A stretch of DNA of 64,000 nt from Nautilus pompilius (lineage: Eukaryota; Mollusca; Cephalopoda; Nautilida; Nautilidae): positions 744,001 to 808,000 of the forward strand of contig JACATO010000691.1 of NCBI GenBank assembly GCA_018389105.1, given 5' to 3'. The translations under genes were made by a program, and so were the position numbers. This document shows positions 19,092 to 54,453 of this stretch, one piece after another (positions within the stretch are counted from its first letter, which is position 1; every line of letters begins with the position of its first letter). The notes beneath the pieces are model-generated. The model saw only the letters and a list, made by a program, of their open reading frames with translations. It was not told the DNA's origin and did not search any database.

Positions 19092-19505
19092 TTATGTCCT
19101 GAGCATTTCAAAATGACGAGTGCGCACTGTGGTAGAGCAAGAACGACACATGCACCTGGTTGGCACCTTGATTCTTATAAACGTAGTCTTGTACAACTGG
19201 GATCCAGGGGAGCGTGGACATAGAAAGCCAATTAGCTGGGTCATTTCTGCAATTTCTTGACAACACCAGCACATGCTCTCCATTTCAGAGAGATCCATTT
19301 GTGATACCTGGGAGTATGAATGGCACGTTCCCTGACAAGCGTAGGAAAGGAGGTTTTTCTTCAAGCAGTCTTTGTACTTGATTGTGTGCACAATTCGGCG
19401 AAGCTTGCATCGTGATTCCTCAAGTGTTCTGAAGCCTGGCAACATCATGACCAACAAGAGGAAGCATGTGGCTGCTGTCACACAACTTTTGTTGAACAAA
19501 TTCAT
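19092..19505 (-). CDS. Burs: Bursicon alpha-like cystine-knot neurohormone subunit, single coding exon
   Basis: A complete 137-residue frame from ATG at 19505 to TAA at 19092. Residues 1-28 look like a signal peptide (hydrophobic TCFLLLVMMLPGF), so the product is secreted. The mature part has exactly 11 cysteines in the bursicon pattern: RCKL, DC, YACQGTCHSYSQVS, MCWCCQE, FLCP, and CMCRSC at the end. SYxQVS, CCQE and PxxCMCRxC identify bursicon alpha rather than GPA2, DAN or beta. Bursicon alpha pairs with beta and activates an LGR-type receptor; in arthropods it controls cuticle tanning and wing expansion. The role here is unknown. The copy is divergent: arthropod QVSGSK is replaced by QVSQMD. 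The coding part is intronless, but ctgccttttgcatttcag just upstream of the ATG could be an acceptor of a 5' UTR intron. Confidence 0.88.
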   Translation of the reverse strand: MNLFNKSCVTAATCFLLLVMMLPGFRTLEESRCKLRRIVHTIKYKDCLKKNLLSYACQGTCHSYSQVSQMDLSEMESMCWCCQEIAEMTQLIGFLCPRSPGSQLYKTTFIRIKVPTRCMCRSCSTTVRTRHFEMLRT

Positions 19506-19525
19506 TTGCCAAAAAGGTTAGTCTG

Positions 19526-20140
19526 AAATGCAAAAGGCAGAAGCTTACTAAACCTCATCAGTGATCATAGTCTCATGTAAGAAAAAAAAGCAAATAGAAC
19601 AGGCAATGGATGTTAGAAAAGCAACTACAGAAATTCTTTAAACCAGCCACTTTAATACCAAATGTTGGCCTTGATAGGTTTTCAGGTTCAGCAGGGTTAT
19701 TTTCAGCAAAGTTTGCTTTATTTCATACAGATAAATACCTTTCTTTTGTTGGATTTTAGAAGCTAGAAGCTGTTATTTTTTTTTTTTTTTGTGAGAGAGA
19801 GTTCATACCTTATCTATTTTTTTATTTTAGCCAGATTTTCTGCCATTATTATGGAATGTGGCATTCTATATGCAGCTTTATTAATCCAGTGTTTATGAAG
19901 CTCTACATAACCAGAAACTGGTTGGTTTTCTACAGTTTTCAAGCCAATGCTTCACTTTGTCTTGTATTAATCAGCCTCTGCAATACCCACTTAATCCATG
20001 TGGAGTGTATTATTATCTTTTTATTTTTCCAAGACCTGGAGTAAGAGATCTTTTGAGTCATCTTGTTGATAGAAACCTAAATTAATGGTTTGTCGTTATT
20101 ATACGTACAGTTAACAGCCAACTTAGTGATGGCTTATAGT
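19526..20140. other. Upstream region of bursicon alpha
   Basis: AT-rich sequence with a T tract near 19771. It is the likely site of the bursicon alpha promoter and a possible 5' UTR exon, but no core promoter motif could be assigned with confidence. Confidence 0.4.
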
Positions 20141-21254
20141 CAGTGCACAGCCAAAAATATATATTCTGAACAAAGTTAATCCATCAACATTCTCATTCTT
20201 GATCCAATGAAAAAGTAATGTTTGTCAATTGTTAATAATCACCATACTTTAGTGTTACAGGCTAAATCTCTTGCTTCATGTGAGACAAACATACTCATTG
20301 CTGGTTGTGCAAGGTAGGTTTTCCAGGTGTGTCTCTCTCGTGATAATCAACATGCAAATTCTGCTACGCATGCTATTGGGTTTGCTACATAAAAAGTAGA
20401 TACTCAGTTGCATAGTGACATTTGCTGTTATTCTGCTAGTGTTGATACTCGATACAAAGTAGCAACAATCAGGAGGCTGCAAGCTGTGGTGATCTGTTCA
20501 GAGGTCACTGCCATCCTGGGTGCCACACACCAGCCATAGGAGCATATGGAACCAGTTTTGACAGACCAGAATCACCACTTCATATGACTACAGTGGCTTG
20601 TGAGATTGGTTCTTGGGGCAACAGTGGTATCAACAACATAGCAGTATTCAGTGATAAACCCCGTTTTCTGCTGTTCAAGGTTGATGGTTAACAGGATTAT
20701 CACTGCAGAAATGAATGTTACAGCCTGGGTGGAGCAAATACTATACAGGACTCTAAACCAATCACACCAACACTGTAAAGAAGACCAGTAGCAATCAGGT
20801 AGAGATTTTTTTGCAGAGACTGATGTTTGGATATTCTAGACACTGCCCGGGTCTTTTGGGATTTTCTGCATGAAGCCCATCAAACACCATTGGGATCAGC
20901 TTAATTACCTTGTATAATGTCATATGGGTGGAATTGTCATGATGAATTTAGCTGTGGTTTATCTAAATAAGATCATATTCACAAAATGGTTCACAATTTT
21001 TTTGTTTTTTAAGGGTTGGTAATGGATTTTATTTTTAAAATAAAAAAATGTGTCGTCCCTACTTTAAAGATGGATAATAGTTTTACTTTACACTTTGTTA
21101 AATATTTTTATGAATTATTTTTGTTTTCATTAAATGGGGATAAATGTACAGCTGTTTATAGATAAATCCACAAATGAATTATTAGTTAGTTATTCTCAGA
21201 ACTAGAACTGAACCAGCAATTTCAGAGTGGTTTACTCACTTTTGGCCACACCTG
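20141..21254 (+). mobile_element. Tc1-like DNA transposon relic
   Basis: The right end (gtttactcacttttggccac, ending acctg before TA at 21255) has the usual form of a Tc1-type terminal repeat. A weak left counterpart starts near 20141 (cagtgcacagccaaaa). Broken plus-strand transposase residues are readable: FSDKPRFLLFKVDG near 20646-20690, like the SDESRF region, and PIKHHWDQL near 20877-20905, like NPIEHLWDQL of the C-terminal DDE part. Several stops and frameshifts make it inactive. It lies just upstream of the bursicon alpha gene. Confidence 0.62.
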
Positions 21255-21259
21255 TATTA

Positions 21260-23300: not shown

Positions 23301-26300
23301 TAATCTATTATCTAAACTGAATTCAGGTGTAAGATAGCTATCATTAACATGGTGTTAAAGAAGTGAAGTAGTCAGCGAGTAACACTGATTGGCTTTACAA
23401 TGCAAGAAAAAAATATAGCCATGTCAGCTTATTCTCCTAAATTAGAATTTTGTTCTCTTTAGCACTTAAATTTAGTTTAATCTCCAATTTTGTTATTCTG
23501 TTAGGCCATTCTAGATCTCAATGCTTGCTCCTTGTCTTATGTATGTATTAAAATCAATCCTAGGTGCATTCTAAATTTTGATTTTCCAGACAAATTCGAG
23601 GAATTTTCTTATTTTTCCAAAGTTACTGTCTACTGAATTCAACCCACACATTGTGAATTCGGTGACTGGGATGACAGATAATGAACACTTAGTCAATAAA
23701 AATGTGAAGGAGTCATAAACGAATGACTGGTTTAATAATGTACTTCGTTCCTTACCAAATTATTTCACACTGGATTCCCTGTTTTGCTACAGACAGCTTG
23801 TAAACTGAAGAGAGGCAGTTTCAGAAGTTTTCGGCTATATTAGTGCATTCATTGCTGCCCCCTTATAAAAGATAACTGCATTCAGTTTGAATCAGCGGGC
23901 ATGATGCTTGCTGTATTTGCTACTTGTGACTGTAAAGAAACTCCTCTTGATTGCAATGAGCTGACAAAGTGTTTTGAAATAGAAATATGCTACTTACTCT
24001 TACCTGCATGGTCTAACTTTGCTGATGCAACAAACCGCTCTAAGTGGCTATAGAACATCAAGCTCCTGAAATTTCTGAAATTTGTCCATTGGTTTAAAAA
24101 GGGACTACGATTGAAAATTAAATAGTTAAATCACATTCATGTAGCACATAGATTGGAACTTTACGTAGTCTTCCCTATATCTCGATTTCGCAACATCATT
24201 CAGAATTGCAAAGTAATTCTCCATGATATTAATTATCAATAAAAACTTTAAAAAAAAAAAGGAAATTTATAACAAATGCAGTAATACTCCTTCATCTGCT
24301 TGTTTTGTGCCATCAAAATAGCTGCATCATAAGTATAGCCAGGTTTATCGCTTGTTTGATTTCTTCAATTTGGCTCTTGGCAATACAGATAACACGGAAT
24401 TTTTTAAAATAGCTTTTTGTTTTCTTTTGGGAAGGATTCAAGAGGGATTTCAGCAAGTTATATATGTGTCTCCCAGCACCCTACAACGGGGGAATTTTAG
24501 AACACTCACCGTCAGAGACAAGTTGTATTCTTTTCGAAATTACCAAAGACTTAAAATCTGGAGAGAGAAAACCTCGCCAAACCTTCCAGAGATCAAAGTG
24601 TCATGTGGTTCTGACAAAATGTACTTGCGTTATCTTTTTCCAAACTTGCAGTCTGCCATTCTCTCCGCAGCCTTAACACGCATCAGACTTGTTGATAATT
24701 ACTCCTAAGTATTTCGCAGTTGGTTTTTTTAATACCTGAAAATTACTGTACTTTGCTATGCTTCTTCATAATGTAACTTTGTCTCCACTTCTAAGCAAAG
24801 ACAAATAAATGCGGACTTCTTTTTGTAGTTAATATTTCACCGAGTTAGTATAACCAGCCAAAGAAGATTGGGAAAAGGTGTCTGTCTCCTTCCCATAAGA
24901 TAGGAAAGTAGGGCCTGCCTTAGATTTATCTTGATGTGCGGATGCTAGATAATTTCACAGCAACACCGTACATCTGTCTCTCTAGTGTAACGTCCAGAAT
25001 TTTGGTGGTTATTTACCCGGGTAGATTGCGCTATATATTATTATTTTCTATTTGCTTTAACTAGATGATCGTAAGAGGAACACTTAGGCCAAAGCTGGCA
25101 GCACCGCCATCGTGCAGATAATCTAATCTGCTGAGAGGAGTTGGCGACGTATCTCGGCACCGGAAATCAGCCACGTCCAATTCTGATTTGTCTTGGTCGG
25201 GTGATATATATACCAAAACGTCGACTCACCTGTCTCGAGGTCTGGCTGAGGCGGTAGGGGCGACAGCGCCAATGAAACTAGCCTTTTGCTGCTTTCCCGG
25301 CCCCTTTTAAATTCTTGCTGAGAATGCAAATGAGGCCGTTGAAAATCCAAAACGTCCGCGCAAACAGTTCGACTCGCGTGGGCTTCATCCGTTTCCTTTG
25401 ATTCACCATCTTCGGCTCTCTTTTCTTTTGTTTGTTTCCTTTACATCCGGCGACCAGGAGTCGGTAACGGAATCCACCTGGAGAAAAAGCGAAAGTGCTT
25501 GAACAGAGCCGAGCGCGAGACGGTCTGGGGGTTCTTTAATCCCTCTGGTTGAGTGGGTCTTGGGTGTTTCGAAATCAAATAAGAGAAAAGGGGGCTGCTT
25601 TCCGGCTCATGGAAGAGTCAATCCCACATTCGTTTGTAGCAGGCATCGCCAAATGTTTCAGCAGCGAGGACAGGACAGAGAAGAAAGAGAGAGAGCGCGG
25701 CGTCAATCGGTGATATAAGAGGCAGGAAAAACCCGGATCTGGCCAACTTCAGCGATAAATTAAGGGCTATGATGGTCACAAATTCTTCTGATTATTTACT
25801 GTGGTTCATAACTACGAACTTGCTGAGTTACAGTGTCCCCCACAGATTGTTTTTTTTTTTAAGTAAAAATTATGGAAAGAATAGTAATGCGAAAATATAT
25901 TCAAAATCGTTGATAAACATCTACTTTCCCTGTATGAGAGGCAATGACTTTCTGTTCCCTTGTAGCAACTGAACTGAACATTAGAGCGTGCGAGAGTAGA
26001 GAACATCTCCCCCCCCCCACCTTAACGCTCTCACTTTCCGTCGGAAACAGGAGGCATTTCCGGTCGCTCTATTTTTTCTTTTTCTTTTTAAATAACCAAG
26101 TATGGCGATCATCATGAAGCTGGTGCCGCGAACACGGGAGGGCGTATGCAAAATAGTCGCCCATTTACTTCTGGACATAACAAACTTATCAGCGGTGGGC
26201 TGCAAGAAGCGGCCATCATCTCTGGCTCTTCCTGAATCTAAGGTCTCGCGGAACTCGGGGATAAAAAAAACATTGGCTCTCGTGTGACATTACGATTCTC

Positions 26301-26880
26301 TCGACTGAATTGCGTTAACGGAATAAGTCGACAAGTTCTTAAAGACAGCTCGATCCGCTCTACAAAGTAAATGATCCGAGTTTCTGTGTAGCACAACGTA
26401 GTGGAGATTGGTTCCAATTAAGGAACGATTCCTTGATCTTGGCTGGCAAAAGGAGATGTTTCGGGCAGTCATTTTTAATAGATCTTTCTTTTATCCCAGC
26501 TTCAGTAATGCTTCCACTTGTCGACATCGGCACGCTTAGTGTCTAATTAAGGGCGCTGTTTTCTTGGAGCCCCACTGATAGTTCTTAGCCTAGAGAAACT
26601 GGGACTGGAATTCCGGGCCATCATAGTAATTAATTGTAGAAGTTGTGGGAGCCCTAATTACTTCTCTCCCCCCCCCCTTCAGCGAGCACACATTGAACAT
26701 TTTGTTTCTATGAATTAGATTACACCTTCGTTTTTTTAATGTTTTCCCCATCAATGCTGCTGAAGATGCCTTCACCTGCAGCCTGGTAGTCGGGAAGATT
26801 CCATTGCTAACTAATGTGTACAGGTGGACAGTTTGTGGATGAAGTATCCGTCCCAAAACCTCTCCTGGGGTCCATTTTAT
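23300..26880. other. Intergenic sequence, no supported gene
   Basis: A 118-codon plus-strand frame at 24352-24708 is the longest but has no family resemblance and no gene-like context. Base composition shifts from AT-rich to mixed after about 25000. Nothing else was recognised. Confidence 0.6.
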
Positions 26881-29250
26881 GAGTGGTGTTCTACGCCGAT
26901 CGTTACCCGTAACAGCGTCTGTCAGACTGACCCTGCCGGGGTTCCGAGCAGACGACAATATCCTCCACCGCGCCGGGCTGTGTGGGGGCTCTCACACTAT
27001 TGCAAAAATGGAAGACTTCATCTCGTGCAGGAAAATGGCGAATTTTGTAAAATCTAGGGAAACCGTACCGAGCCCTGTTTAGTGACCCCACATGGGGTAC
27101 ACCACCCCTGAGCAAGTCTGCCGGGCGCGCTGAAGCGCCAATGTCGCACTGCGCCCTCCCTCCCGTCTCCGACATCACCGGAGGCGGAAATGACGTTGCA
27201 ACGGGGCTGGTGCGCAATCGCGGGCGCCGCGTGCATTTGAGCAGAAGGATCCGACCGCTCGCCGGATTATCTTTGCTGTCTGGACTAATGGATTAGAGTG
27301 GGGCTTCCTTCGACGGGCGACGGCCATCATCGATAAGCTATGGAGAACGCAGACGACGGCGCGCGTTAGCGAACGGACATTTTAGGTTAGTACTGAATCG
27401 TAAATGAAACTCCTCACTGTAAGCGGTGGGGTTAGGGTTAAATAATGTTATAGAGCAGACGACGATGACCACCTTTAATAACAGTCGGGGGAGGTGGAAA
27501 TTAGAAGGAAAAAAGAAAACAAAAAAAACCCCAATATTCTCCGCGATCTTAGCGGTATGAAGGGGCCACCGGGAGGGAGTTAAATGGCGATGGCAACATA
27601 CTGCGTCTCGACGGTGCATCGTCTCTAATAATTGGAAATTACAAATTCTAGGTTTTCCTTCGACTTCTAAGCAAACAGTGAAACTGCGATTCTCCGTCCT
27701 TAAGATCCAGAAGTCAGTCAGGCCGGGTAAAGGGCGCGCGATCAATGAACACGAGATGGCGGAGAGGAAGAGCTGGGCTGGGCTGGCTGCGAGTTGTGGG
27801 ACTTCTCCTGTTTACCGAGAGAAAACAGCAGCTCTCGCTCGCCGCACCGGGGCGTTCTGATGGCGGGGGAAGGGGACATGGGTCGCCGAGGCTCGTGCTG
27901 GCTGGGAATTAAAAGAGAGGAAGCCAATTATTCGACTGCGGACTCGAGAAGGGGCAATTAGTCGAGAAACCTGCGTCGTATCGGCGGCTAGAAGACGACG
28001 ACTGAGTCCGTCCGTCGCCGGGCGGTGTACCACCGCCTCTAAAAACGGGCGTCTGCGCAGGGGAGAGAGCGGGTGTGGCGCACCGTTCGGACGGGTATCC
28101 CACGAACCTTCTCGTTAGCCCCGCTCCCTGGTGTCCCGTATTCAGGCTTGCATATCGCGGAGTAAAGTCAGCTTTTGCCTGCCGAATAAATCCCTAAAAC
28201 TGGTTGGCCCGATATCAAAGATCCCGAACCAGACCGTGTCCGAAACGAACTCCGGTGCCCCGACCAACAGAACGCAGAGAGCCGACCGGGCGGGCGGCGA
28301 TCCCGCGCCAGGGGTCAGGGTTGGTTAGCCCACACGTCGTTAGGCCGGTGGACCAGATAACCTTCTGCACAATAAGCTACTGGTTAGAAATGATAGGAAA
28401 ATCGAGTCGCTTCTTTCAATTAGGTATCGACTTATGAGAACCAAACCATTCTACTAAATGCCTAGATATAAAAAGGACACCTTTTCGACCAGCCCATCCC
28501 CTCCCTTTATTGCAGCGTCATCGGAAATCTCGTCAGATTTACTTGTATCCTCCACGCACACGCAAAGACACCTTCCGATCGGACGAGAGAGACAAGCGGA
28601 ATCGCCTGGAGCAAAATGACATGGCGGCTCGGATGTGGCAATATTCTCGCTGGACCAGTTCTGGAGCCGATTGAACCCATCACGTCGGCACGACAACAAA
28701 ACTTTCGAACGCGACCCGCAGGCACCGAAACGGGCAGTGGGGTGGTGTACACGCGAGTTCTTGTCTTCATGGGTCGCTTTTGACTCGGTAAATATTTCTC
28801 CTCTTTGTCGTAGTGGGATAAGACAATCACGGGGAATAAGTACGGGAGCTGTTGACCTTTTTGGTCATCGACTTCGCGGCCACGCGGCATGAACGAGCAG
28901 CGACGATAGAGCAGGGAGATTTAAGAACCCTAGATGTCGGCAAGAAAGAAGCCAAGAGCAATTACAATTCGGGCCCGAATTCTCTCTGGCTGTCGAGTTG
29001 CCGTCGAAGTGGAGAAAGTAGGCGACGCACGTCGGCCAAATGACGTTATAGCCGGTTTCTGCTGTAGCGACCGGGGCTGAGCGGTGAAAGGGGGTGGGGA
29101 CTGATTCGATTTACGGAAACGATAGGGCCGCCAATCGACAGAAACGAAGACTACACTTACGTAGTCGTCGCCGGAGAAAGATACCACTTTCACAAAATGA
29201 TGTTAAATTATCCACATCGACTTCCCAGCCGCCAATTTACCTAGTCCGTT
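26880..29250. promoter_or_regulatory. CpG-rich block, possible promoter or unmethylated island
   Basis: CpG dinucleotides are dense here compared with the AT-rich flanks. A YY1-type element acatggcggc lies at 28619-28628, and gagatggcgg occurs near 27753. Many short open frames arise from high GC. None looks like a known protein, so no gene is called. It may mark a transcription start of an unrecognised gene or non-coding RNA. Confidence 0.35.
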
Positions 29251-29972
29251 TCTCTGCCCAAAGTGGAAATTCGAAGGAATGTTTGGTCATCTGAAAACTA
29301 AGATATATGTGACGTAAATGTTTTTTTTTGTTGTTGTCGTCGTCGTCTTCTCACTGCTTCGGTCATTTGTACAATTTATCATCAGAAATCGCTTCACGCG
29401 CGCCTTGCTTTACTTCCGCCTCACACGGAATTCTGGGAAGAAGAAAAATCTCCAACATCGCCATGCTGTGTGTATTCACAGAATTTTTAAAAGAAAATTT
29501 ATTACGTGAAATTTGAGCTTTTTATTTGTTTTACATTTTAAAGAACACGACAGATCCGTTACCAATAAAAGTAAAGAGGTTTTAATATAAATTTAATCAG
29601 ACAACACTTGGCCTTATATAAACTAACAGTATCCGCCTATAGTGGCCACCAAATGTAATGGACCACGGAAGAGCGTTATGCTCACCCTAACAACAAACAT
29701 ATATCTGCTCTTTCTGTTTTGTCTCCGCTTAATATAAATAATCCTTCGTCATCCATAATCTTCCCTGTGTTATATAAAAAGGGATTTCCCCCTCCAGCAA
29801 TGTAAGATAAATAATTCTTATCTACTTAAAAATCACACTAATACGCAGACGTGTATCGTTAATACTCAGAACTATCCTTTTAGGTAGGAACCTATCGTGG
29901 ATAATAAACTCAACAATGCTATCATTCACCCCACACTCTGCCACCAGGCTCATTAATTTTCCTGTGTTACTA

Positions 29973-31203
29973 TTAGGTTGTTACAAAAGTTGTGTCGGTT
30001 TTGTTACCGCAATAATGAGATATCATATCGTTGCTGAACGTGAAGTTAATTAATCAAAGTAAGTTCCATCACAATCAATACACTTCTTCAACGAATTACA
30101 AGCGCACTGATACCATTTTGGAAAAAACTCTGGATTTTGGAGTTGATAAACTGTTGGAAGGCGGTTTCAATTGCTGCTTGGTTGGAGAAGGATGTCATAC
30201 AGAGGAAGCTGTCGAGGTGTTTGAAAAGATGGTAGTCCTTAGGAGAAAGGTCAGGTGAATAGGCTGGGTGAGGGGGAACTTCGTACTCCAACCTTTTCAG
30301 TTTCTGAAGAGTCACTTTTGCAACATGAGGACGAGCATCGTCGTGGAGCAGGATTGGGCCTCTTCGATTCACCAATTCCAGCTGTCATTGGGAGAGTTGC
30401 TGATGAACAACGTGTAATCCACCACAGTACCTTTCAGCAGTGATGGTTTCGCCAAGTTGCAAGAAGTTATAGTGGATGACACCAGTTGCATTCCACCAGA
30501 CAGTGACCATTACATTCTTTGGGTGAAGGCTGAGTTTTGGAATGTGGTTAGGTGCCTTGTCTCTGTCGAGCCACTGTGCCGATCGTTTGCGATTGTCGTA
30601 AAGGATCCATTTTTCATCACACGTAATGATTCGGTCAAGAAATAGGTCGTTTTTGTTTCTTACGACGAGCGAAGAGCAGATCTCCAATCAACGATTTTGT
30701 TGTTGTTCATTCAACTCGCGAGGCACCCACTTGTCCAGCCTTTTCACCTGGCCGATTGTATCAAGATGCCGGGAACTGTTTTTCTTGGATCGGCGTCAAC
30801 TGTGGCTTTCAGATGGTCGTTATCACGGCTGAAAGGACATCGCTACATTTTTTTATCTTCGAGGCTAACATCCCCCGATCGGAACTTTGCAGACCGTCGT
30901 TGTACTGAGCGCTCAACCGCTGTGTCCTCGCCCCGTGCTTGCTTAATGTTACGAGTTGCCTCGCTCGTTTTGTGGTTTGAACCCGTGAAGCAAAACGGCA
31001 CAAGAAACTTTCTATCCACGCTTCACTCAGAACCCTGAAACAAATATCCATTTTATGATTTGTGAAAAAGTAGGCTTTCATAATATATACCGAAGCACAC
31101 GCTACACAACAACATATAACTTATCTACGTGCACCTTCATGCAAAAAAATGAGCCCCAAATTAACATAATATAAAAACCGACAAAACATTTGCAAAGACC
31201 TGA
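29973..31203 (-). mobile_element. Mariner-family DNA transposon with both terminal inverted repeats
   Basis: The left end ttaggttgttacaaaagttg (29973) is preceded by TA. The right end, read in reverse, starts tcaggtctttgcaaatgttt and reaches 31203. The two ends match at about 24 of 30 bases, including tgtcggtttt. The length of 1231 bp is close to a full mariner (about 1.3 kb). The encoded protein is of the irritans/Hsmar1 type. The right TA is TG, so the target duplication has decayed. Confidence 0.9.
30050..31040 (-). pseudogene. Mariner transposase pseudogene
   Basis: Clear mariner motifs in order: RLDKWVPRELNEQ, ITCDEKWILYDNRKRSAQWL, MVTVWW, ILLHDDARPHVA and YSPDLSPKDYHLFKHL. The three catalytic Asp positions of the D,D34D triad (CDEKW, LLHDD, SPDL) are all present. 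Damage includes several frameshifts in the N-terminal DNA-binding region (30700-31040), an in-frame TGA near 30385 between the first and second catalytic Asp, and a frame loss just before the KKCIDCDGTYFD-like end (30050-30090). It cannot produce an active enzyme. Confidence 0.9.
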
Positions 31204-31980: not shown

Positions 31981-32037
31981 ATTCTAATTGGTGCGCATCT
32001 TGTCGTGTTTTACCTGAAGCTGAGGTGGTCAGTATGC

Positions 32038-40910: not shown

Positions 40911-40915
40911 CAGGT

Positions 40916-41100: not shown

Positions 41101-41149
41101 ACCAGAGAACACCTCTTTGCCGAAGACTGAACGCTGTGGAACTTTGTTT

Positions 41150-42420
41150 GAAAATCGTTATTAAAGCTGAGGTTTACCGTGCCAAATATTAACACCATTG
41201 TCATACGAACATAAATATTTGGCAGCGTAATGTTGTAATAATTAATGCTAGTTAATATAAGACTGGATGTGGCCGCAGTACTACTTCTTACTGCTGTTCG
41301 TCCAACATCGAGTAAGAGTTCCCACAATGCACCGGGCCAACGGAAGCTCTCAAGACTGTACCAACAGCTTCCACTAGCGCCATGAACGTGTCCACCTTTT
41401 CTTCAGGTTTTTTTTTCCTCAGACGGCTCACACGCCAGTCCACAGTAGCGCCCACTAGATGGCGCACCAAACGCCTATTCCACTCTATTATGCACCATAC
41501 ACAAAGTCTCTGGGCTGTTGCAGTTACGCTACGCGCGCGCACGGAGTGGAATAGAGGCAGAAACAGATGTCTTGCCCATCCACTGCGTTAGGAAAGCACC
41601 TGCTTGCGCTCGTGCGGGTAAAGGTATTAATTTTCCCCCGACCTGCTGTGTGATAGCGCGGTCGCGGCTGCAGCGGACCGTGTCTTATCTCCTCAAGAGA
41701 TCTCTGGTTTTTGCTGGCGGGCACTCGGACAGATTAAAGGTGTGCTTTCCGGGCCAGCTGCTCTTCCCTTCTGGTGCTGTTTTCATAATCGGTGATGATG
41801 ATGATGAAGATTAAGATGGAGGCTACGGGTTCCCCATTCTCTTCTACTTACTTAGCTTTATTTACTAGCTGTTCCGTTTTTGTTTGTCTTTTTAGAAAAA
41901 TGTTATTATATAATATAATTTATTTTTTAACAATCCAACTTTCCATCACTTTTACCTGTCTGTGTGTGTGTGGGGGGGGGGGAGGGAGGTACGGTAAAAA
42001 CCCACCCGTTCAGGAAGACAGGCTTCCCTGGCGGCGACGATAGGAGGAAACATCGAGCTCCTCGGTCGCCCTGTCACGACTTTCTCGCTATCGATCCGCC
42101 GCCGTACGAGAATATCGGCCAATTGCTGCCGACGCCGAGGTGGGTGGTGGGGGGAACAGGGGCGGTGACTAACCGGATGACTGACACTTGGGCAGACGTT
42201 CATAGGTAGAGCTGCCGGTCCTCATAAGAGCCGGGCGGCAACAGGTGACGACGGAACCGACGAAGTCTCGCCATTCTTCGGGAGATCCGCCGAAAACCGA
42301 AGTAGCAGAAGACCGGAATTTGTTCTAGTCAGTCAACGAGAACTGCTCCCCAGGTAAGCGGGGTTCGCGTTGTGCCAGTTGGCTAGAACTTAGTTCGAGA
42401 ACAGTTTTAAAAGGTAAGTT
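41150..42420. other. Intergenic sequence, mixed composition
   Basis: A GC-richer stretch from about 41500 to 41760 and again from 42000 to 42340 contains no recognisable exon. Splice-like caggtaag motifs near 42351 and ggtaag near 42413 occur but have no supporting open frame. Confidence 0.5.
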
Positions 42421-42424
42421 ACAT

Positions 42425-43893
42425 ATGTGTGTGTGAGAGAGAGTGTGTGTGTGTGTGTGGTGTGTGAGTGAGAGAGAGTGTGTGTGTGTGTGAGAGAGAG
42501 AGTGTGTGTGAGTGTGTGTGGGTGTGTGTGGGTGTGTGAGAGAGAGAGTGTGTGTGTGAGTGAGAGAGAGTGTGTGTGAGTGAGAGAGTGTGTGTGTGTG
42601 TGAGAGTGTGTGTGATAGAGAGAGTGCGTGTGAGTGAGAGAGAGTGTGTGTGAGAGTGTGTGTGTGAGTGAGAGAGAGTGTGTGTGAGTGAGAGAGAGTG
42701 TGTGTTTGAGAGAGAGTGTGTGTGAGAGAGAGTGTGTGTGTGAGTGAGAAGAGTGAGAGTGTGTGTGAGGTGTGTGTGTGAGTGTGGTGAGAGAGAGTGT
42801 GTGTGTGTGAGAGCGTGAAGTGTGTGTGCGAGAGTGTGTGTGTGAGAGAGAGAGTGCGTGTGAGTGAGAGAGTGTGTGGTGTGTGAGTGTGTGTGGGTGT
42901 GTGAGAGAGAGTGTGTGTGTGAGTGGAGCGTGTGTGTGTGTGAGAGTGTGTGTGATAGAGAGAGTGCGTGTGAGTGAGAGAGAGTGTGTGTGTGAGTGAG
43001 AGAGAGAGTGAGAGTGTGTGTGAGGGTGTGTGTGTGAGTGTGTGAGAGAGAGTGTGTGTGTGTGAGAGAGTGAAAGTGTGTGTGAGTGTGTGTGTGTGAG
43101 AGAGAGTGTGTGTGGTGTGAGAGAGAGAGTGTGTGTGTGAGTGAGAGAGCGTGTGTGTGAGTGAGAGAGTGTGTGTGTGTGAGAGTGTGTGTGATAGAGA
43201 GAGTGCGTGTGAGTGAGAGAGAGTGTGTGTGAGAGTGTGTGTGTGAGTGAGAGAGAGTGTGTGTGAGTGAGAGAGAGTGTGTGTTTGAGAGAGAGTGTGT
43301 GTGAGAGGAGTGTGTGTGTGAGTGAGAGAGAGTGAGAGTGTGTGTGAGGGTGTGTGTGTGAGTGTGTGAGAGAGAGTGTGTGTGGTGAGAGTGAAAGTGT
43401 GTGTGAGAGAGTGTGTGTGTGAGAGAGAGAGTGCGTGTGAGTGAGAGAGTGTGTGTGTGTGAGTGTGTGTGGGTGTGTGAGAGAGAGTGTGTGTGTGAGT
43501 GAGAGAGTGTGTGTGTGTGAGAGTGTGTGTGATAGAGAGAGTGCGTGTGAGTGAGAGAGAGTGTGTGTGTGAGTGAGAGCGCGAGTGAGTGTGTGTGAGG
43601 GTGTGTGTTGAGTGTGTGAGAGCGAGTGGTGTGGTGTGAGAGAGTGAAAGTGTGTGTGAGTGTGTGTGTGTGAGAGAGAGTGTGTGTGTGTGTGAGAGCG
43701 AGAGGCGTGTGAGTGAGAGAGTGTGTGGTGTGTGTGAGAGAGAGAGTGTGTGTGTGAGTGAGAGAGAGTGTGTGTGTGTGAGTGAGAGAGCGTGTGTGTG
43801 TGTGCGCGAGAGAGCGTGAGTGTGTGTGAGTGTGTGAGAGAGCGAGTGTGTGTGTGTGTGCGAAGAGTGAAAGTGTGTGTGTGTGTGTGTGTA
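42425..43893. repeat. GT/GA compound minisatellite array, about 1.5 kb
   Basis: Blocks of (GT)n and (GA)n alternate, with rare variants such as tgtgatagagagagtgcgtg and tgtgtttgag. Rare variants recur at a fixed distance: tgtgtttgag at 42701 and 43280 are 579 bases apart, showing a higher-order duplication. The 508-codon minus-strand frame across it (H, T, S, L only) is an artefact. Confidence 0.97.
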
Positions 43894-44485
43894 CCTTCAG
43901 CGCATCATCTAATCTGAACGGCAATTTTTTCTTCCTTTCTCTCAATCTGAGGAAGCTCGACAGGGATGCTTTTCCTTTGATGTAGTATATGTCTAAATAC
44001 TTTCAGATCTGTGAATGAAAAACCACGGAGCTGGGCTCATCACCTGGAAATAGAATTCGCTTTCATAGGTAAAAGCTGGAGACGCTGTCATACATTCATC
44101 TGGTTACTGCTGTAGCATCCCGCGGGATAGGGATGTTTTAGTTGGGGAAAAACGGAGTCCCCATGTTCGCATCAGCGTTTTCACTTCTCACTACAGGTCA
44201 ACGTGGGCCCAAGCCCCCTCCCCCCCTGATAGTTGAGGAAAGAAGTGAGGGCCTAGCTTCATCCAAGTGCGTGCCCTAAAGTTGTCGCCAGTTGCTTCCT
44301 ACATTATTCTTTATCATTGCGTAAAAATTAGAAAATAATTCAAATGCTTGTGGTAAAAATGACGGCTGTATTTCTTTACGAACAAAAAATCCAGACAATT
44401 TTCTTTTAAAAAGAAAAGTTTTATGTTCTAAATAATAATAATAATAAAACTATTAACAAATTTAAATAATATCGATTATCGATGA
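43894..44485. other. Intergenic sequence between arrays
   Basis: No gene or repeat family recognised. An AAT run lies at 44430-44445. Confidence 0.6.
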
Positions 44486-44527
44486 GAGGGAGGGAGAGGG
44501 AGAGAGAGAGAGAGGGGAGAGAGATGA

Positions 44528-44578
<51 letters not shown>

Positions 44579-44715
44579 GGGGGGGAGATGGAGAGAGAGA
44601 GAGAAAGAGAGAGAGAGAGGAGAGAAAGAGAGAGATGGAGAGGAGAGAGAGAAGATGGAGAGAGAGAGATGGAGATAGAGGGAGGGAGAGAGAGAGAGAT
44701 GATGATGATGATGAT
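44486..44715. repeat. GA-rich tract with an 18-base G run and an ATG repeat
   Basis: GA repeats are interrupted by a run of 18 G (44568-44585) and end in gatgatgatgatgatg. The G run could form a quadruplex or be a polymerase stutter site. Confidence 0.95.
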
Positions 44716-45239
44716 GCGTAACTCGGAGGCTCTGATAATAAATATATATCCCGAATTAATCAGAGGATCAGAGATGCTCTTAACGCCATAGTAAATGCAC
44801 AGAACAGGCTGTTGGTGCTCCGTATCACCCTAGAATACTCCTACGAAATCAGTTAGCGCTGCTTCTAAAGTGAGTACAGAATGAAAGCAAAGAGATAAAT
44901 AAACAGCTCAGTTAAATTCGAAGACGTATTTCACATTTGTAATTCGTAAAAAGAAAAATTCTTAAGTTGGCTTAGACTGTAGTCTGATTCACGATTTTCG
45001 GAAACTTGAAATCTTTAAGAAAACCCAGGATCTGCTATGTACCGTTAGATGATTAGAAGATGGATCTGGACAATTGCTCTGGGAGGCAGGAGAGATGATC
45101 GGTCCATTTTACTGACGTCTGGTGATCATGGATCAATCACAGATGCTGAAATCCGAGATAGCAAACCAACGAGAAACAAAAAGATCATCAGCTTTCTTAA
45201 AGCAGAAGATCCTGATGACATTAATGACCTGAATTGTTG

Positions 45240-46555
45240 AACTTTGGGCTGGAGGTTTAGCGCACTCGGCCGCCATTTTTGCGACCTATCGTTCGGCTCC
45301 CCCCCCCCTGGTTACCCCCGTTCCGGCTCTCCAGCGTGAGCATACTCCGAGCACTATGGTTTCCCCTAGTTGCTTGATGATACTCGTCCAGTTTATTTCT
45401 TCGAGCGACCGAAACCCACAAACACCCGTCTGCCCTCGCGCTGACCACAACCCCGTCACACACACACACACGCGCGCACAAGGGTGGGTGCCACCATATT
45501 GAGCGAGGGGCGTGGAAAGAAGTCGGTGCTAACCCGATATCCAGGCAGGGGTTTTAAAAATGGCTCTGCAAATTAGGGACCATTTTAAATGCTCTAAAAT
45601 GTTTGTGGAAAATTACCTAGATGGCATCAGATTAAAAGGGACTGTAAAAGATTAACTCGCTGCTCGTTACCTTTCTTCGAGGTGCCACAGGTGAGCAATG
45701 GAGTCGATGTCTAGATTTCCCGAAACGTCTCTGGCATAAACACGGCAGGGATAAGTCGGGGTCGTCCACATAGGTGGTTAGCAGTTTCTTCCGCCGCACA
45801 AAGGAGGAAGTTGTATTAGCAGGGCTTAGCTTACCAGACTTTTTGTGGCATCGCCTCACCGGAATTTGTAACCATACCTGGGGAGGGGGGGTAGGTTTGA
45901 GGAAGGGGCCGAATGCTGCTGCTCGGGAACGACGGTTGGACGCGGAAGCTTTGGCCCGGGACGGAAGAGCACCCCTAATGACGGAATAGACTCCGCCGCA
46001 AGAGGGGGCGGCGGCGGCTGTAATATGACTGGACTTTGGACTTTAGGTGGCGTGAGAGTTCATCGTCTATGGCCAACAACAGGGATCGATGGGACGAGAG
46101 AGCAGCGAAACCTTCGAAGTTCACTCCCCAGATCGTCGGTTGACCCCCTATTTGTGGGCGGGCCTTTAAGGGGTTTTAAAGAGGGGCCGGCTCGAGGAGG
46201 TTTATACTACAGCGGCTGGTAGGGTAGGTACTCTCAGCTGTGGAGAAGTACGAACGAGAGGCGGCTCCTTATTCGTCCTGCGAGCGGCCTTAGATGTGGC
46301 GCAGATGGGGCGTTGATTTACTTCCGCTGTCGCCCCGCAGGTGCGGGATGTGGCGATTGGCAGGCGACCGGAAAGAGAGAGCGAGCGAGCACCGACAGGA
46401 ACCGGCTGGAGAGGGGGGGCATCCTCCTCCTTACAGGTGCGTTTACTCCGAAACCACCAGGATACGGTCTACTGCACCGCTGGGGTCGATTACCTGTTGT
46501 TTGTTGTACTGCTCGCGCGGAGGACGGGTAGAGTTAGGGTCTGTACTTTGTGGGT
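45240..46555. promoter_or_regulatory. CpG-rich block, possible promoter
   Basis: CpG-dense sequence with a YY1-type gccgccatttt at 45269-45279 and a short CA run near 45458-45472. No frame resembles a protein family. It could be a promoter or an unrecognised first exon. Confidence 0.35.
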
Positions 46556-46559
46556 TAGG

Positions 46560-47600
46560 GTTGTGTGCGCGCGCGTGCATATGTGTGTGTGTCTGTGTAC
46601 ATGTGTGTGTGTTTCTCTGTCTGTGAGTGTGTATGTGTGTGTTTGTCTGTCTGTGAGTGTGTATGTGTGTGTGTGTGTCTGTTACATGTGTGTGTGTGTT
46701 TCTCTGTCTGTGAGTGTGTGTGTGTTTGTCTGTCTGTGAGTGTGTATGTGTGTGTGTGTGTGTGTGTGTGTTGTCTGTCTGTGAGTGTGTATGTGTGTGT
46801 GTGTTTCTGTGTACATGTGTGTGTTTCTCTGTCTGTGAGTGTGTGTGTGTGTTGTTTGTCTGTCTGTGAGTGTGTGTGTGTGTTTGTCTGTCTGTGAGTG
46901 TGTACATGTGTGTGTTTCTCTGTCTGTGAGTGTGTATGTGTGTGTACATGTGTGTTTGTCTGTCTGTGAGTGTGTATGTGTGTGTGTGTGTCTGTGTACA
47001 CGTGTGTGTTTGCCTGTTTGTGAGTGTGTATGTGTGTATTTGTCTGTCTGTGAGTGTGTATGTGTGTGTCTGTGTACACGTGTGTGTTTGTCTGTCTGTG
47101 AGTGTGTATGTGTGTACATGTGTGTATTTGTCTATCTGTGTGTGTATGTGTCTGTGTACACATGTGTGTTTGTCTGTCTGTCTGTGAGTGTGTATGTGTA
47201 GATCTGTGTATTTGTCTCTCTGTGAGTGTGTATGCGTATGCGTACATGTGTGTTTGTCCGTCTGTGAGTGTGTATGTGCGTGTGTGTGTCTGTGTACACG
47301 TGTGTGTTTGCCTGTTTGTGAGTGTGTATGTGTGTATTTGTCTGTCTGTGAGTGTGTATGTGTGTGTCTGTGTACACGTGTGTGTTTGTCTGTCTGTGAG
47401 TGTGTATGTGTGTACATGTGTGTATTTGTCTATCTGTGTGTGTATGTGTCTGTGTACACATGTGTGTTTGTCTGTCTGTCTGTGAGTGTGTATGTGTAGA
47501 TCTGTGTATTTGTCTCTCTGTGAGTGTGTATGCGTATGCGTACATGTGTGTTTGTCCGTCTGTGAGTGTGTATGTGCGTGTGCCTGTGTATCTGTGTGAA
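46560..47600. repeat. TG-rich minisatellite with 298-bp higher-order repeat
   Basis: Units of the type tctgtctgtgagtgtgtatg repeat for about 1 kb. A segment with distinctive variants is duplicated: gtagatctgtgtatttgtct is near 47199 and again near 47497, and gtttgcctgtttgtgagtg is in the block near 46993 and again near 47291. Both pairs are 298 bases apart. Frames on both strands (C/V/S or H/T/Q) are artefacts. Confidence 0.96.
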
Positions 47601-47779
47601 AATAATGAAATTAATAAAAATGCTTTCACGTACATCTTTAGTATTAAAAATATCATCTTTAAATATTCGGTTTAATAGCAAAGAAATGTTTTAAATTGAA
47701 CTAATTATCTTCGCTTCTTCCTTCACCATCCTTGTTTTGCTTTTTTCTTTCTTCTTCTGGGAACACTCAGCTTAGAGAC

Positions 47780-48760
47780 AGAGAAGAATCCCGATCATTA
47801 ACGTCTACGTCGCGTTCCTGCTAACAGTTTGTCGGGTCACGGCGCGACTTTTACGATGACGTCACCGATCGAACCGCGTGTTGTTCGGTGATGCGATTGT
47901 TGTTGGTGACGAACCAGGATTCTTCGACCGGTCCATCCCCCGGTGTCAGGTTCCTTTTTCCAGGCTTGGCGCAATAACAGCCATGTCTGCTGGAGCTCGC
48001 CGTGGTGTCCCCGTCACTGAGAGCCCGAGATCGATCGAGGCTGGAATAGATCCGGCAAAATAGCTGAGTGCTGTCGTCGGTTTTGTCTCGGCCCGCGGCA
48101 AGCGCCGAACCAACAGGTCAGCGGTCCGCCAGTCTGTGTATTTTGCGAACCATGAGTCTGGCACCGTTGACTCGGGGGATGAAATCGCGCAACAAATCTG
48201 AGCTGGAGCCGAGAGAGAAACGACTGATCCGGTCGGTGGTGGGTTTTTGAACATGACGTCTACCCAGACCATGAGGCTGCAGCCGATAAAAAAGATAAAC
48301 AGGCAAAAACAAAAAGCATGGGTTTTAATCATCGTGGCCCATCTGGGATCGCCTTCCCCGCCCCCTTTCCCTCCCTCCCAACCGCTCCAAGCGAGATTTG
48401 TCATTGCGACGAACGAAGGATTTCCCTCCTCCGTTTTCTCTGTCGGCCATCTCCATCTGGTCACGTGGCCGGTCTGTTACAACCTTTCAGCATCTGGAGG
48501 CAAAAAAAAAAAAGAAGAGAGGGTTCCGTTCTCAGCCAATTCAAAGCAACTCAGCGGACTGCGCCGTGTGTGGCGATTTGTCCGGAATTCTCGCGAAACG
48601 ACGGCTCATTTTCTTTTCCGAACTAATCCAGTTCGCTTAAATCCGCGATAGGATCGCAGCAACCCCGACTGGCTCAGCTCAGCGCCGGGGCGACGACCTG
48701 AAGCGGCTCGCGGCAGTCACGCGCCGTTTACTTTCATTTTCACTTTATTCGAATAACTGA
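47780..48760. promoter_or_regulatory. CpG-rich block with CRE site
   Basis: CpG-dense sequence with a perfect TGACGTCA at 47857-47864. No coding region recognised. It lies about 5 kb upstream of the bursicon beta start. Confidence 0.35.
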
Positions 48761-49364
48761 TTTCTAAGGATTTGTTTTCACCTGTAGACGAACGAGACTC
48801 TCCCGTTTTCCTTATGAGATGGCGCGGCGATCCTGAAGTATCGATTCGGAGGAAGAAGATCGATGTGACTGGAAGCCCCTGTTCTCGCTCAGATTGTCCA
48901 GCACAAAAAGGATGTCAAAATATACCGTGGCATTTATCTGAACTCGTAACCTATAAGACTTCAGCCTCCAGCCGAGAAGCGGTTTCAGCGGAGGAAATGA
49001 AACAAGAAATTAGAATCCGATTTTGGTTTGTACGGGTTGGCAAAATAATTAGAAGCCTAAAGATAAAATGTGGGCATTAAGAGATTGTTGATGTTGTGAG
49101 TAAGATGTTAGTTTGGTTTATTCAGTTAAGAGCTGGCCTGGAAATGTGGTTTCGAATAATGGAAAAATTCCCTCTTCTATTTAGAACTCGAAATAATTTA
49201 CATTATTACTCATCTAATTGGCAGATGTGGTGATTCCTGCCGAATGCCTCGATCTTCCTTTTCTTCTAGTTTCTTCCCACGAAAGATTTATCTCCAGTTC
49301 TTCTGAATATCTTATGGAGCATCTGTTATTACCATATTCCGACAATTTACGGAAATAACTGACG

Positions 49365-49670
49365 TGCAGCGGATTATAAGCCAATAAAATACAATGAGCG
49401 AAAAATCGCGTAAGTAATAAGGGAAAGATGAGCTAAGAAAGAAATATGAAGCTTATTATAGACTATTACATAAAGGATCAAAAAGTCGTATTAAAGAATT
49501 TTACTGCTCGATAATCCAAACCATTAAAATAAAGCTGATTATTGACTCTGGGGTAAAAATGCACGATTATGCTAACAAGTAGAATGAAGATGATTATAGA
49601 TTGCTGCATTAAATTAAACTGTCTGATGATACCAAACAGGTAATATAAAGCCAATCACTGGTGTAGATGT
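49365..49670. repeat. Degenerate ~60-bp tandem units, left flank of the retroelement
   Basis: About five diverged copies with cores such as gattatagattgctgcatta, aaataaagctgatta and gataatccaaac. Similar units occur at 52540-52780. Confidence 0.55.
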
Positions 49671-49939
49671 AATGCAGTTCTACCATTTTAATGAAGTTCC
49701 ATGTGTTTGTGTTTAAATATGGACGGAGGTAACGTGCTCTAATACAGATAGCTAAAGATGGCAAATTGTGTTTTTCTTATGCTGTAGTTGAATCCGTGCG
49801 CATATTAAGGTACAGCGAGGAGAAAGATATCGCAAGTGGTGAGGAGAATGGATAAGGTAGGAAATAGAGAATAATATAAGAGTGACAGATGGAATGGCAC
49901 TAGATATGGGTGGTAACAAAGTAAATTAAACGGTTTAGA

Positions 49940-51760
49940 AATTATGCTGGAGACGAGTACCGCTCAGAAGCTGAACTTAGTACTACAGTGTAGTTATGCA
50001 GACGTTCAAGGCAAATATGATTAACTGAAAGAAGAAAGCCTCTGTTAAAGGTGAGTGTCGCGGTAGGGAAGCTGTTGCTGAAAGCGCAGGATCTGACCAG
50101 GCCAAGCCACGAATTGTTGAACATCAGATGAAGCCGAAGCAGGCAGAGATCTATGCAACGAAGATTTCTGGTACAGATGAGGTTATAAGAGTCGCATAGC
50201 AAAAGATCCAAGATGTCCAGTTGAAGGTACAAACTGCTACGGCTGTGGTCAGAGCGGACATTTTGCAAGCAGGTGCAAAACCAAGAACAGTGCAAAGTTC
50301 ACTCGAGACGGTACCAGGGGCGATGTCCGAGTCAGGTTAGTCTGTCTTTTCTGTGTGTTCTGTGCTAGACCCCGGCCCTGTACTCACGTGAAAGCAAGAA
50401 TTGTTATAAACGATAGTATCAAAATGAACACTGGCTCTGTACGAGTACAGTTTTAATAGCTAAGCGTCTGTGAGAGCAGCTGAAAAGGACAGGAACGAAG
50501 TGACAGTCACAACAAAATTGTAAACAACCTTTCCCTATAGCTTCAAAACACCTTTACTCCTTAGAGCCACATCCACAACCATAATTAAGGTTAATAATAA
50601 CATCGCGAAGACAGAGACTGCGGTCATTGATGAAGACGTCGAGCCTTTGCTGAGTAAGAAAACAGCTACAGAATTAAGAGTTTTAAAGATTGATGCACCA
50701 GAGACAGAGTCAAAGAACATGGCGGACTTGCTTTCAAGATTTTTGAAAAACGGAAATCTAATCATTAGCATCTTCCTCGCAGAAAGATGTGCCAGTAGCA
50801 TAAATTCGAAGAAACCCTAAAGTTGTCTCAGCTTTGACATTTGAAATGAGATTAAGTACAGAAAATACCTGATGAGTTGTGTGCAATTAGGCAAATGGCG
50901 CTCGGGAAAACAAGAATTGTGGTTTCAGGAGAACTCAAACAGCGTTTTAAAGAACTGCACATGATGGCCATATGAGATCGTTAATGCTTAACGAAAACTG
51001 GCGGTTTCGTATTGATAAGGATGCTGAGAAACATTACACAATACATGAACCAATGACAGAATTAATCTGCCATCTAGAAATCGGAAAGATCCACCGGCGA
51101 ACTATCTTGCTCTGTTATGACAAGACCATTAAATCTTTGTTATAGTGAACTACTACAGCAGATACTATGAAAGTCAGAACAGTAAAGTTCACCAGCACCA
51201 AGAAGTTCATAAAAACTCTTGCGAGACTGTATTTGCTGTCTATGGCTTGCAGTATACATTAAGCAGTGACGAGTGAGTATTAGGAAATGGAACGGCAGAA
51301 TCATTGTGTATTCAAACGTCTCAGGATTGCACAAGCAGAGAAGGAAGATTGGAGAAAATATTTACAGAAATATCTGGTTGTGTATGGTGCAATACCAAAT
51401 GCGACTGGTGGCTTGAGTCCGGCTGGATTCTAGTTTGGCCGTAAAATAAGAACTAACTGCCAGAGTTTTTAGTATCGAACATGGCACTCGAGTGACAGAT
51501 ATAATAAAATGAAGTCTAAGAACCTATATCCCGATGAGAAAGTAGATTCTAAAGTAAATGATATTGTAGTAGAAGATAATTCCTTGTAGAGCAGAAAGAA
51601 AGAACAAACTGCAAACATCCAACAATCTAGTTTTCTACGATGTAGTAGGGAAAGAAAAAAATCGCGTGACTGTTAGATTTCAAGATGGTGTAAGAGACAA
51701 AAGGAAATATACACACACGAGGAAGTATATTAAACGAGCTGAACTGTGCCGAGACCTGAC
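49940..51760 (+). pseudogene. gag-pol remnant of the gypsy-type element
   Basis: CYGCGQSGHFASRC (50235-50276) is a perfect C-x2-C-x4-H-x4-C knuckle. LLSKKTATELRVLK near 50647-50690 resembles the block after the retropepsin active site. NMADLLSRF near 50717-50743 resembles the NIADxLSR end of RNase H. The integrase part shows YYSRYYESQ near 51148-51175, RLRIAQAEKEDWRKYLQKYL near 51315-51375 and FGRKIRTN near 51435-51457. Many stops and frame changes are present; no active product is possible. Confidence 0.72.
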
Positions 51761-52539
51761 GAACCTATCAATAAGTCGAACATGATAGATATTTCCAATG
51801 ATCCTGACCCTATGATCTCATAGACAGTTCCAGATACTTTTTAGAAGAATACTTCCGTTAAAGTCGCACCTCAGAGGAGTGGAGTCGTGCCAAGCAAGTT
51901 TAAAGACTGTGTGTCAATCTAAGAAAGTGTCCAAGTTGAACACTTCATACTTTTGAAATGCGTTAATATCGACTTCATAGAACCATTCTGTTTAACCTGA
52001 ACCAACATTTTATAAAGTCGGAATAGATTTTTTATTTGATAATTATGAGCACAGAGTACCATGGGTGTATCTATTTAAATTCAATGGCCAGTTTATTTTG
52101 AACACTTATTGCTGTAGAGCTTTGAGTTAGCATATTTTTAAGAAAAGAAAAAAAAAGATTAAATGGAATTTGAATGAAAGGTCCTAACAGAAATAATACA
52201 GTTATAAAACTCACGATATATAAGCTCCTAGACGGCTACCACGAATCTGTTTAATTTAGATGGAATTGTTCTTTCTCATTTTTTTTGTTGATAATTTTAA
52301 CGATTAAAAGCTGCTTCAAACCATCTGTCGAAAACCATAGATGCACTGCTCTCATTTCCGAAAGAAGGTAAAGACGAGATGTAATTCTATCTTTTTAGTA
52401 AAGTTCCGCTTACGTGTTTTTTTTGTTTAAAAAATGGATTGATGAATTGTGGGATGGTGCAATTTAACAAAGATGGCTGGAGCTGGCAGCGAGTTGCGTC
52501 GTTACAATAGAACGTTGCTTTCAAATGTAAAGCCGAGTT

Positions 52540-52780
52540 GAGATTATTACATTAAATTGTGTGATAATCAAAACAAGTGGCATAAATCCGATCACAGACT
52601 GGTCCACTAAAACGCGCGATAATCTATACAAGTAAAATAAAGCCGATTACAGATTGCTAAAAATGTACGCCAATCAAAACCTAATTATAGATTATCACCT
52701 CAAGATGGGGAATGATCCAAGCAGATAATATAAAATTGATTATAGATTGCTGTATGAAAATGTGGGCGTGATTCGAGCAT
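52540..52780. repeat. Degenerate ~60-bp tandem units, right flank of the retroelement
   Basis: About four diverged copies, for example aaataaagccgattacagat, aatataaaattgattataga and gataatcaaaacaagtggca. They match the units at 49365-49670 in the same orientation, as expected for paired LTRs. Confidence 0.55.
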
Positions 52781-52899
52781 CTCTGTACTATTCTGTCGAT
52801 GTCTTCACTACAATGTCGCTTTTATTATATCTTAGTTGAAGATTTTATAACCACTTATTTGTAACTGAGCGTTAGTAGTCAGCCATCATGCTGGAGATC

Positions 52900-53539
52900 A
52901 TACATATGTCATAATGGCGTCTGACCTTCGAGAGTTAAGCAAATCAATACCGAGTGGCAGTACTGAAAATTAATATTGCCTATTTGTGTATGTCTGCTCT
53001 TTATAATGTTCATTTTGCTTCTGGTTTATTTTTATTATTTTTGTAATTGACAAAAAAGGTACTTTTCTTGATTGCCGAGGCCTCTTGGAACTGTTGTCAA
53101 ACACCTGTAACATTTATTCGTGATTAAGATCTGACTACGGTGTCTAAATTCCCACGGATTTTAACTCTGACCTATGACGTCGTTATTAGTACTGGCGCCA
53201 GGAATATGTTCGTTGGAGTAGCCATGAATACTTTAAATCCATTTGTAAGCCAAATTAAAGTCCTTTTGTTGAGTTTTTTATATATATATATATATAATTC
53301 CGTTGGATGTTGTGGTGTCAGAAACTGGAAATTTCCTGGAGCAATATTAGCCAAAGTTACCTCCCCATTTCAAATATTGTGTCAAAATAATATTGTTTTT
53401 GCCAAAAAAAATAATAATAATACAAAAATAAAAGGTAATAATAAAAAAGGGAGATATATATGCGAAATTTTAATCTGCGCGCGGTGTAAACGTGATATTT
53501 CATCTTTTATGGATGTCTGCCTTTCGTTCTCACTGCAGA
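52900..53539 (+). other. Upstream region of bursicon beta
   Basis: AT-rich sequence with a TA run at 53279-53296. It is the likely place for the proximal promoter if the 5' UTR is unspliced. If the acceptor at 53521-53538 is used, the true promoter lies further left. Confidence 0.4.
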
Positions 53540-53788
53540 ATGAGAAACCTGAGCCTGGTGATCATCGTTCTGGTGGTGGTCATGGTGACGCCTAGGGACG
53601 CGGACGGCCAGGCCGATAACTGCCAAACGCACAGGGGAGAGGTGAACGTGGTGAAGAAAGTGTTTGTAGATCGCGACGGGGGCGCCCAAGAGGTGCAGTG
53701 CTCGGCCAGGCTGGCGATAAACAAATGCGAGGGGACGTGTTCATCGCAGGTCTCGCCGAGTGCGAGAATTCCCCGTGGTTTCCGTAAG
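53540..53788 (+). CDS. Pburs: Bursicon beta exon 1
   Basis: Signal peptide and the first half of the cystine knot, ending RGFRK before gtaagc. GC-rich compared with its flanks. Confidence 0.92.
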
Positions 53789-54453
53789 GTAAGCCCCGCG
53801 CCATTTCCTTTTATTTATTAATTTATTTATTTCCAACTCCAGGACGCCATAGAAACTCCGACGGTCTGAAAGCGGGTTCGAAGAAGTAAAAAAAATGACT
53901 CGCGGTCGGGGAGACGAGCGTCGTTAGCTGACCGTCGGACCCCGGACGTGCTCCCATTCGTGGAGGTTCGGTTCGGCTCCGAGCTGCTGGTGCCTTAATT
54001 TTATAATAAACATCGGCCTGCTAGGTTGCAGTACAGACTCGCAATAACGGCAACAAGAGCGTTTCCGGTCACGCCCACCCCGCCACAGCGGGGGTCCGTT
54101 TAGCGGAGTTATCGTTCGTTGAATGTCAAACCGGGATCCGAGTCTGCGCAATGTTTCCAACAACTTGGCCGCTAGTAGTAGAAAATGCTCAGCCACTTGT
54201 CGCATGCTTGTGTTATCTGCTCACGCCTCAGTTGTTCGTTGTTGTATTTTTTTGGTTTTCATGCGGGTTTTTTATTCAAGTTTCCAATATTTTCCAGGAG
54301 TGTAACTGCTGTCGAGAGGGGAGCCTCATTTCAAGGACCGTCAGCGTGAACGAATGCTTCGACGCGATCACGGGAGTTGCCATTCCAGACCTGCAGCCGA
54401 CCATAATTTTGCAAGAACCCTCTAACTGTTCATGTCAAGAGTGTCCTAATTAA
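53540..54453 (+). CDS. Pburs: Bursicon beta (partner of bursicon) neurohormone subunit, two exons
   Basis: Exon 1 is 53540-53788 (83 codons, donor AAG|gtaagc) and exon 2 is 54298-54453 (acceptor ccaatattttccag, stop TAA). Together they encode 134 residues, close to the usual length of about 140. Residues 1-24 form a signal peptide (SLVIIVLVVVMV). The mature chain has 11 cysteines in the beta pattern: NC, VQC, NKCEGTCSSQVSPS, then KECNCCRE, NECFD and CSCQEC. The intron falls exactly before ECNCC, in phase 0. KCEGxCSSQVxPS and the KECxCCRE block spanning the splice are diagnostic of bursicon beta. It forms a secreted heterodimer with bursicon alpha, and homodimers are also known in insects. The ATG at 53540 is chosen because it gives a good signal peptide; an upstream in-frame ATG at 53513 exists. 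The motif ctttcgttctcactgcag just before the ATG could be an acceptor of a 5' UTR intron. Confidence 0.93.
54298..54453 (+). CDS. Pburs: Bursicon beta exon 2
   Basis: Begins ECNCCREGSLISRTVS and ends SCQECPN plus TAA. It supplies seven of the eleven cysteines. Confidence 0.93.
   Translation, partial: ECNCCREGSLISRTVSVNECFDAITGVAIPDLQPTIILQEPSNCSCQECPN

Follow-up and report, generated by a model that had tools for sequence, protein, structure and literature searches.

Results

Two bursicon genes in the Nautilus window

The window analyzed here is a stretch of 64,000 nucleotides from the genome of the cephalopod Nautilus pompilius (assembly GCA_018389105.1, contig JACATO010000691.1, positions 744,001 to 808,000), and it contains predicted genes for both subunits of the hormone bursicon. 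A preliminary description of the window had placed alpha on the minus strand from 19505 and beta on the plus strand from 53540, and both our gene models and our searches agree with this placement. The two genes are divergent, and their start codons are 34,034 bp apart. Their features are as follows.

19092..19505, minus strand: coding sequence of bursicon alpha (burs), one coding exon, 137 amino acids plus stop, with a hydrophobic leader and 11 cysteines
19523..19524, minus strand: splice-acceptor-like AG, 17 nucleotides ahead of the alpha ATG; 13 of the 16 preceding bases are pyrimidines, which suggests an intron in the 5' untranslated region (UTR)
53537..53538, plus strand: splice-acceptor-like AG, 1 nucleotide ahead of the beta ATG; 13 of the 16 preceding bases are pyrimidines, which suggests a 5' UTR intron
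53540..53788, plus strand: coding exon 1 of bursicon beta (pburs), 3' boundary AAG/gtaagc
54298..54453, plus strand: coding exon 2 of bursicon beta with the stop, 5' boundary ttccag/GAG

The 11-cysteine pattern that had been noticed in each subunit was confirmed. The alpha protein has 13 cysteines in total, and two of them are inside the leader, a putative signal peptide, so that 11 remain; their spacing agrees with a working reference sequence of Drosophila burs in nine of ten intervals, as expected of a burs. The two exons of beta join in frame to give 134 amino acids with a leader and 11 cysteines, and the spacing agrees with that of Drosophila pburs, a partial and approximate reference, in eight of ten intervals. 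This pattern is not diagnostic on its own: a DAN-like protein of the same genome (L027) also has 11 cysteines with similar spacing.

Identity was judged by pairwise searches only, with burs and pburs as the hormone references and 17 loci of the assembly. In BlastP, burs was the top partner of alpha (37% over 94 amino acids, E = 1e-21), followed by pburs (2e-5). Among the genome's own proteins, alpha matched the gremlin-like L025 at 6e-5 and L027 at 0.002, and burs was thus the closest. For beta, pburs was the top partner (37% over 109 amino acids, E = 7e-21) and burs the second (0.014). The tBlastN search in all frames of the 17 loci gave the same pairing: burs found alpha (E = 2e-18) ahead of L027 (3e-4), and pburs found the two beta exons (1e-7 and 1e-6) ahead of the alpha locus (3e-4). 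In addition, Pfam assigned alpha to the DAN family (E = 1.6e-5) and gave no family for beta at E 0.001. The solved structures closest to alpha were NBL1/DAN and the gremlins, and none was found for beta at E 1 or better. The single-sequence structure prediction of alpha had a low mean predicted local distance difference test score (34.6).

Within the 727.6-Mb assembly, alpha was found at one place (search at E 0.001), and so was beta (search at E 10, in which an extra match at E 0.43 was a low-complexity frame). Furthermore, five other DAN-domain matches and eleven Cys_knot matches are all on other contigs, and no larger cluster was therefore seen near the pair. Judging from these sequence comparisons, the two loci are single-copy orthologues of the bursicon subunit genes, one for alpha and one for beta. 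As expected from their family, the two subunits would pair as a heterodimer acting on an LGR-type receptor.

An acceptor-like site within 20 nucleotides was found for 161 of the 2105 ATGs of the window outside low-complexity stretches. The transcripts of both bursicon genes may start farther into the gap, via 5' UTR introns.

The gap between the genes and its neighborhood

The window lies inside a contig of 1,558,097 bp, and there is no N across the 264 kb around and including it. The gap between the two start codons contains a mariner copy, a DUF4371/hAT-like fragment, a CCHC fragment and simple arrays. On the other side of alpha, its tail-to-tail neighbor is an AMPK gamma (PRKAG) gene, which was found using tBlastN with a human PRKAG1 query. 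Its exon pieces are collinear from -2938 to 15360 and so begin 2.9 kb outside the window.

1..15360, plus strand: AMPK gamma (PRKAG) gene, 3' part
29968..31204, minus strand: mariner copy with its CpGs retained (Transposase_1, E = 6.6e-24)
32041..32631, minus strand: DUF4371/hAT-like transposase fragment (Pfam DUF4371, E = 8.3e-10, for 32341-32631; 32041-32304 had no family and was assigned by eye)
50181..50453, plus strand: fragment that carries a CCHC zinc knuckle resembling that of gag (Pfam zf-CCHC, E = 3.1e-4)

There were 198 open reading frames (ORFs) of at least 60 amino acids in the gap, and 162 were left after low-complexity ones were removed, with ends slightly trimmed. Pfam was run on 89 of these, and the remaining 73 were read by eye. 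A set of nine ORFs yielded the only family matches at E 0.001 (Transposase_1, DUF4371, the CCHC knuckle and DUF3112), the DUF3112 match (E = 8.8e-4) being under the family cut-off and within the mariner stretch; the other 80 gave no Pfam family at this threshold. As a positive control, eight known PRKAG exon pieces (23-64 amino acids) were scanned, and three were recovered, by CBS matches. The earlier statement that no recognisable host gene lies between the two starts held within these limits: apart from the sub-threshold DUF3112 match, only transposon-type Pfam families were seen among the 89 of 162 ORFs scanned, the other 73 were read by eye, and exon-level detection in the control was 3 of 8.

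Outside the gap, three long plus-strand frames at 61064-62958 are hAT-transposase-like by eye, and the middle one matched DUF4371 at E 0.0055, under the cut-off.

A CpG-undepleted domain

The preliminary description had mentioned CpG-rich blocks in the gap. The gap is indeed CpG-rich, but a two-state segmentation of the 264 kb gave one nearly continuous domain rather than blocks.

24487..58293, no strand: CpG-undepleted domain of 33.8 kb, which takes in the whole beta gene and the greater part of the gap between alpha and beta

In the segmentation, the domain is interrupted only by TG-rich arrays at 42402-43783 and 46576-47531. CpG observed/expected is 0.86-0.99 by segment inside it, and about 0.2-0.3 in the surrounding region, which has an excess of TpG/CpA, a few short islands aside. 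Alpha lies in CpG-depleted DNA, 5 kb from the domain edge, whereas beta lies within the undepleted domain. The eight other CpG-high segments in the 264 kb are far smaller (0.24-2.7 kb). A 2-kb block of the domain matched only itself in the assembly. In addition, CpG-high stretches were present at several other loci of the genome, in a non-random sample, and unmethylated DNA such as the 33.8-kb domain may be nothing unusual in this genome.

Copies of one mariner family occur in both compartments. The genome search with mariner gave 4135 first-look candidates, of which 40 were scored, and 46 matches were listed; the nine copies compared were the window copy, six of the 45 other listed matches and two from the region. 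Their CpG observed/expected tracks that of the flanks: five copies with flanks of at least 0.96 have values of 0.76-0.93, and four with flanks of at most 0.33 have values of 0.39-0.65, in a sample biased toward the top scorers to a CpG-rich query. The mean divergence outside CpG sites was 0.098-0.145 for the nine copies. Because the CpG content of mariner follows its flanks, we read the domain as spared by germline methylation, and this suggests that such methylation is present outside and absent inside it. Since copies of a single mariner family occupy both compartments, the locus also lends itself to testing whether germline methylation is mosaic.

Palindromes of the cyclic AMP response element (CRE) type, TGACGTCA, occurred five times in the CpG-high domain, within the alpha-beta gap at 33863-47864, against 0.55 expected, and six times in the window against 0.78. 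This excess was set aside as regulatory evidence, since three of the sites are within one CT-rich tandem array. The right edge of the domain carries another tandem array (57214-58381, 83-bp unit, 14.3 copies, 94% matches).

Discussion

Known hormone gene pairs

The pair had been considered perhaps undescribed. In Roch and Sherwood 2014 (PMC4079206), the bursicon subunit genes are said to appear close together in certain insects, with citation of Mendive 2005 and Van Loy 2008, and the closeness of the genes was therefore already in print. Like the Nautilus pair, the insect pair consists of closely placed genes for these two subunits. However, the present pair is in a mollusc, and it is divergent with a 34-kb gap.

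The same paper states that GPA2 and GPB5 are almost always close together in bilaterians, and, together with PMC8522476, that the two thyrostimulin genes are in tandem in most invertebrate species. In both systems, the genes that stay close encode the two halves of a heterodimeric hormone, each of them a cystine-knot protein. The difference is that GPA2/GPB5 are other subunits with another receptor class, and that they are in tandem whereas the bursicon pair is divergent. Moreover, both bursicon subunits occur in molluscs (PMC6425005), and the starfish subunits have 11 cysteines (PMC4772807).

A head-to-head arrangement of the bursicon genes was not found in a literature search that reached few subscription papers. 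The available portions of PMC11521371, PMC4888303, PMC4244043, PMC4414376, PMC8286064, PMC5818035, PMC2990333, PMC8522476, PMC6425005 and PMC4772807 contain no linkage statement on these genes. The closeness of the bursicon genes is not new as a kind, and what the mollusc pair adds to the hormone's history is useful but modest.

Origin of the linkage

We consider it rather probable that the bursicon neighborhood is a relic of an ancient subunit duplication, which predates the split of molluscs and insects and was later inverted and spread apart. An ancient duplication would have created both subunit genes side by side, and the linkage would have been retained since before the two lineages diverged. 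A later inversion would have given the divergent order, and transposon insertion would have widened the gap. Alpha and beta would each be transcribed separately from their own upstream promoter, probably through a 5' UTR intron, and the linkage would require no present-day regulatory role. An old linkage is supported by the bursicon genes of certain insects, which are likewise close, and by the GPA2/GPB5 parallel, both as given in PMC4079206. The account also draws on the single place of each gene in an N-free stretch, on a gap with transposon pieces in which no host gene was found (89 of 162 ORFs scanned, control 3 of 8), and on the lack of a larger cluster near the pair. If the linkage is old, the bursicon subunits would have originated by local duplication, in parallel to GPA2/GPB5, and PRKAG, alpha and beta would be a simple synteny marker across animals.

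Several points weigh against this account. The inversion has to be assumed, because a plain tandem duplication gives a head-to-tail order, and the retention is presumed from this one genome. An ambiguous sentence on the limpet in PMC4079206 may mean that alpha and beta are separated in a second mollusc. Because Pfam detects single exons poorly, the gap may contain a small host gene that escaped detection. In addition, the Drosophila burs and pburs references were working sequences, that of pburs being partial, and a human LGR5 core used to look for the receptor found no more than two matches, each 29% identical. Finally, the account is built on genome sequence.

It is also conceivable that the two genes were secondarily joined by a rearrangement in this lineage, so that their linkage is recent and coincidental. 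The limpet sentence, if it does mean separation, would fit such a joining, as would the transposon pieces in the gap. However, two given loci in 727.6 Mb would be such close neighbors with a probability of about 9e-5, a figure to be read with the fact that the pair was chosen after the fact, and the same genes are reported close in certain insects. We regard a secondary joining as unlikely, while giving it some weight. A chimeric contig that joins two unlinked loci is far harder to accept, and we consider it very improbable. The base composition does shift near 24.5 kb, on the way from alpha to beta, and the contig was judged from the assembly itself; yet the CpG rise is gradual (about 2 kb), similar transitions occur elsewhere in the region, and the 264 kb without any N belong to a contig of 1.56 Mb.

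The preliminary description had offered both an ancient duplication and shared regulation as reasons for the linkage. The duplication is a plausible source, whereas shared regulation found no support in view of the 34-kb distance, the different CpG compartments and the exon numbers. Under shared control, the 33.8-kb domain would be a common regulatory block that holds the pair together. Most of the gap is taken up by the domain, which dwarfs the eight other CpG-high segments, and a 2-kb block of it has no second match in the assembly. On the other hand, alpha is outside it, the occurrence of CpG-high DNA at several other loci means that the domain may be ordinary, and the numbers of coding exons differ between the two genes. 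We therefore think a common regulatory block quite improbable. Its combination with an old linkage, in which the genes have been linked since before the split of arthropods and molluscs and are held together by the domain as a conserved, germline-unmethylated regulatory block, is very doubtful to us as well. The starts of a bidirectional-promoter pair are by definition no more than about 1 kb apart. A bidirectional promoter was rejected, since the start codons are separated by 34 kb; 5' UTR introns could narrow the distance between the transcript starts.

Other observations

Rfam had no match in the window. A perfect 69-bp tandem duplication was seen at 3133-3270. Elsewhere in the assembly, ribosomal RNA genes (L031-L033) were found at 16 matched places; the 18S is divergent, with A+T-rich stretches and 89-90% identity to a metazoan 18S core. 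Furthermore, cytochrome oxidase 1 had 153 matches in the assembly (for example, L035), and the motifs in its reading point to a mollusc. In many of these copies, residues 3-75 and about 120-220 are some 60 bases apart and the intervening part is missing, a pattern that would fit amplification of a mitochondrial insert after it had been shortened.

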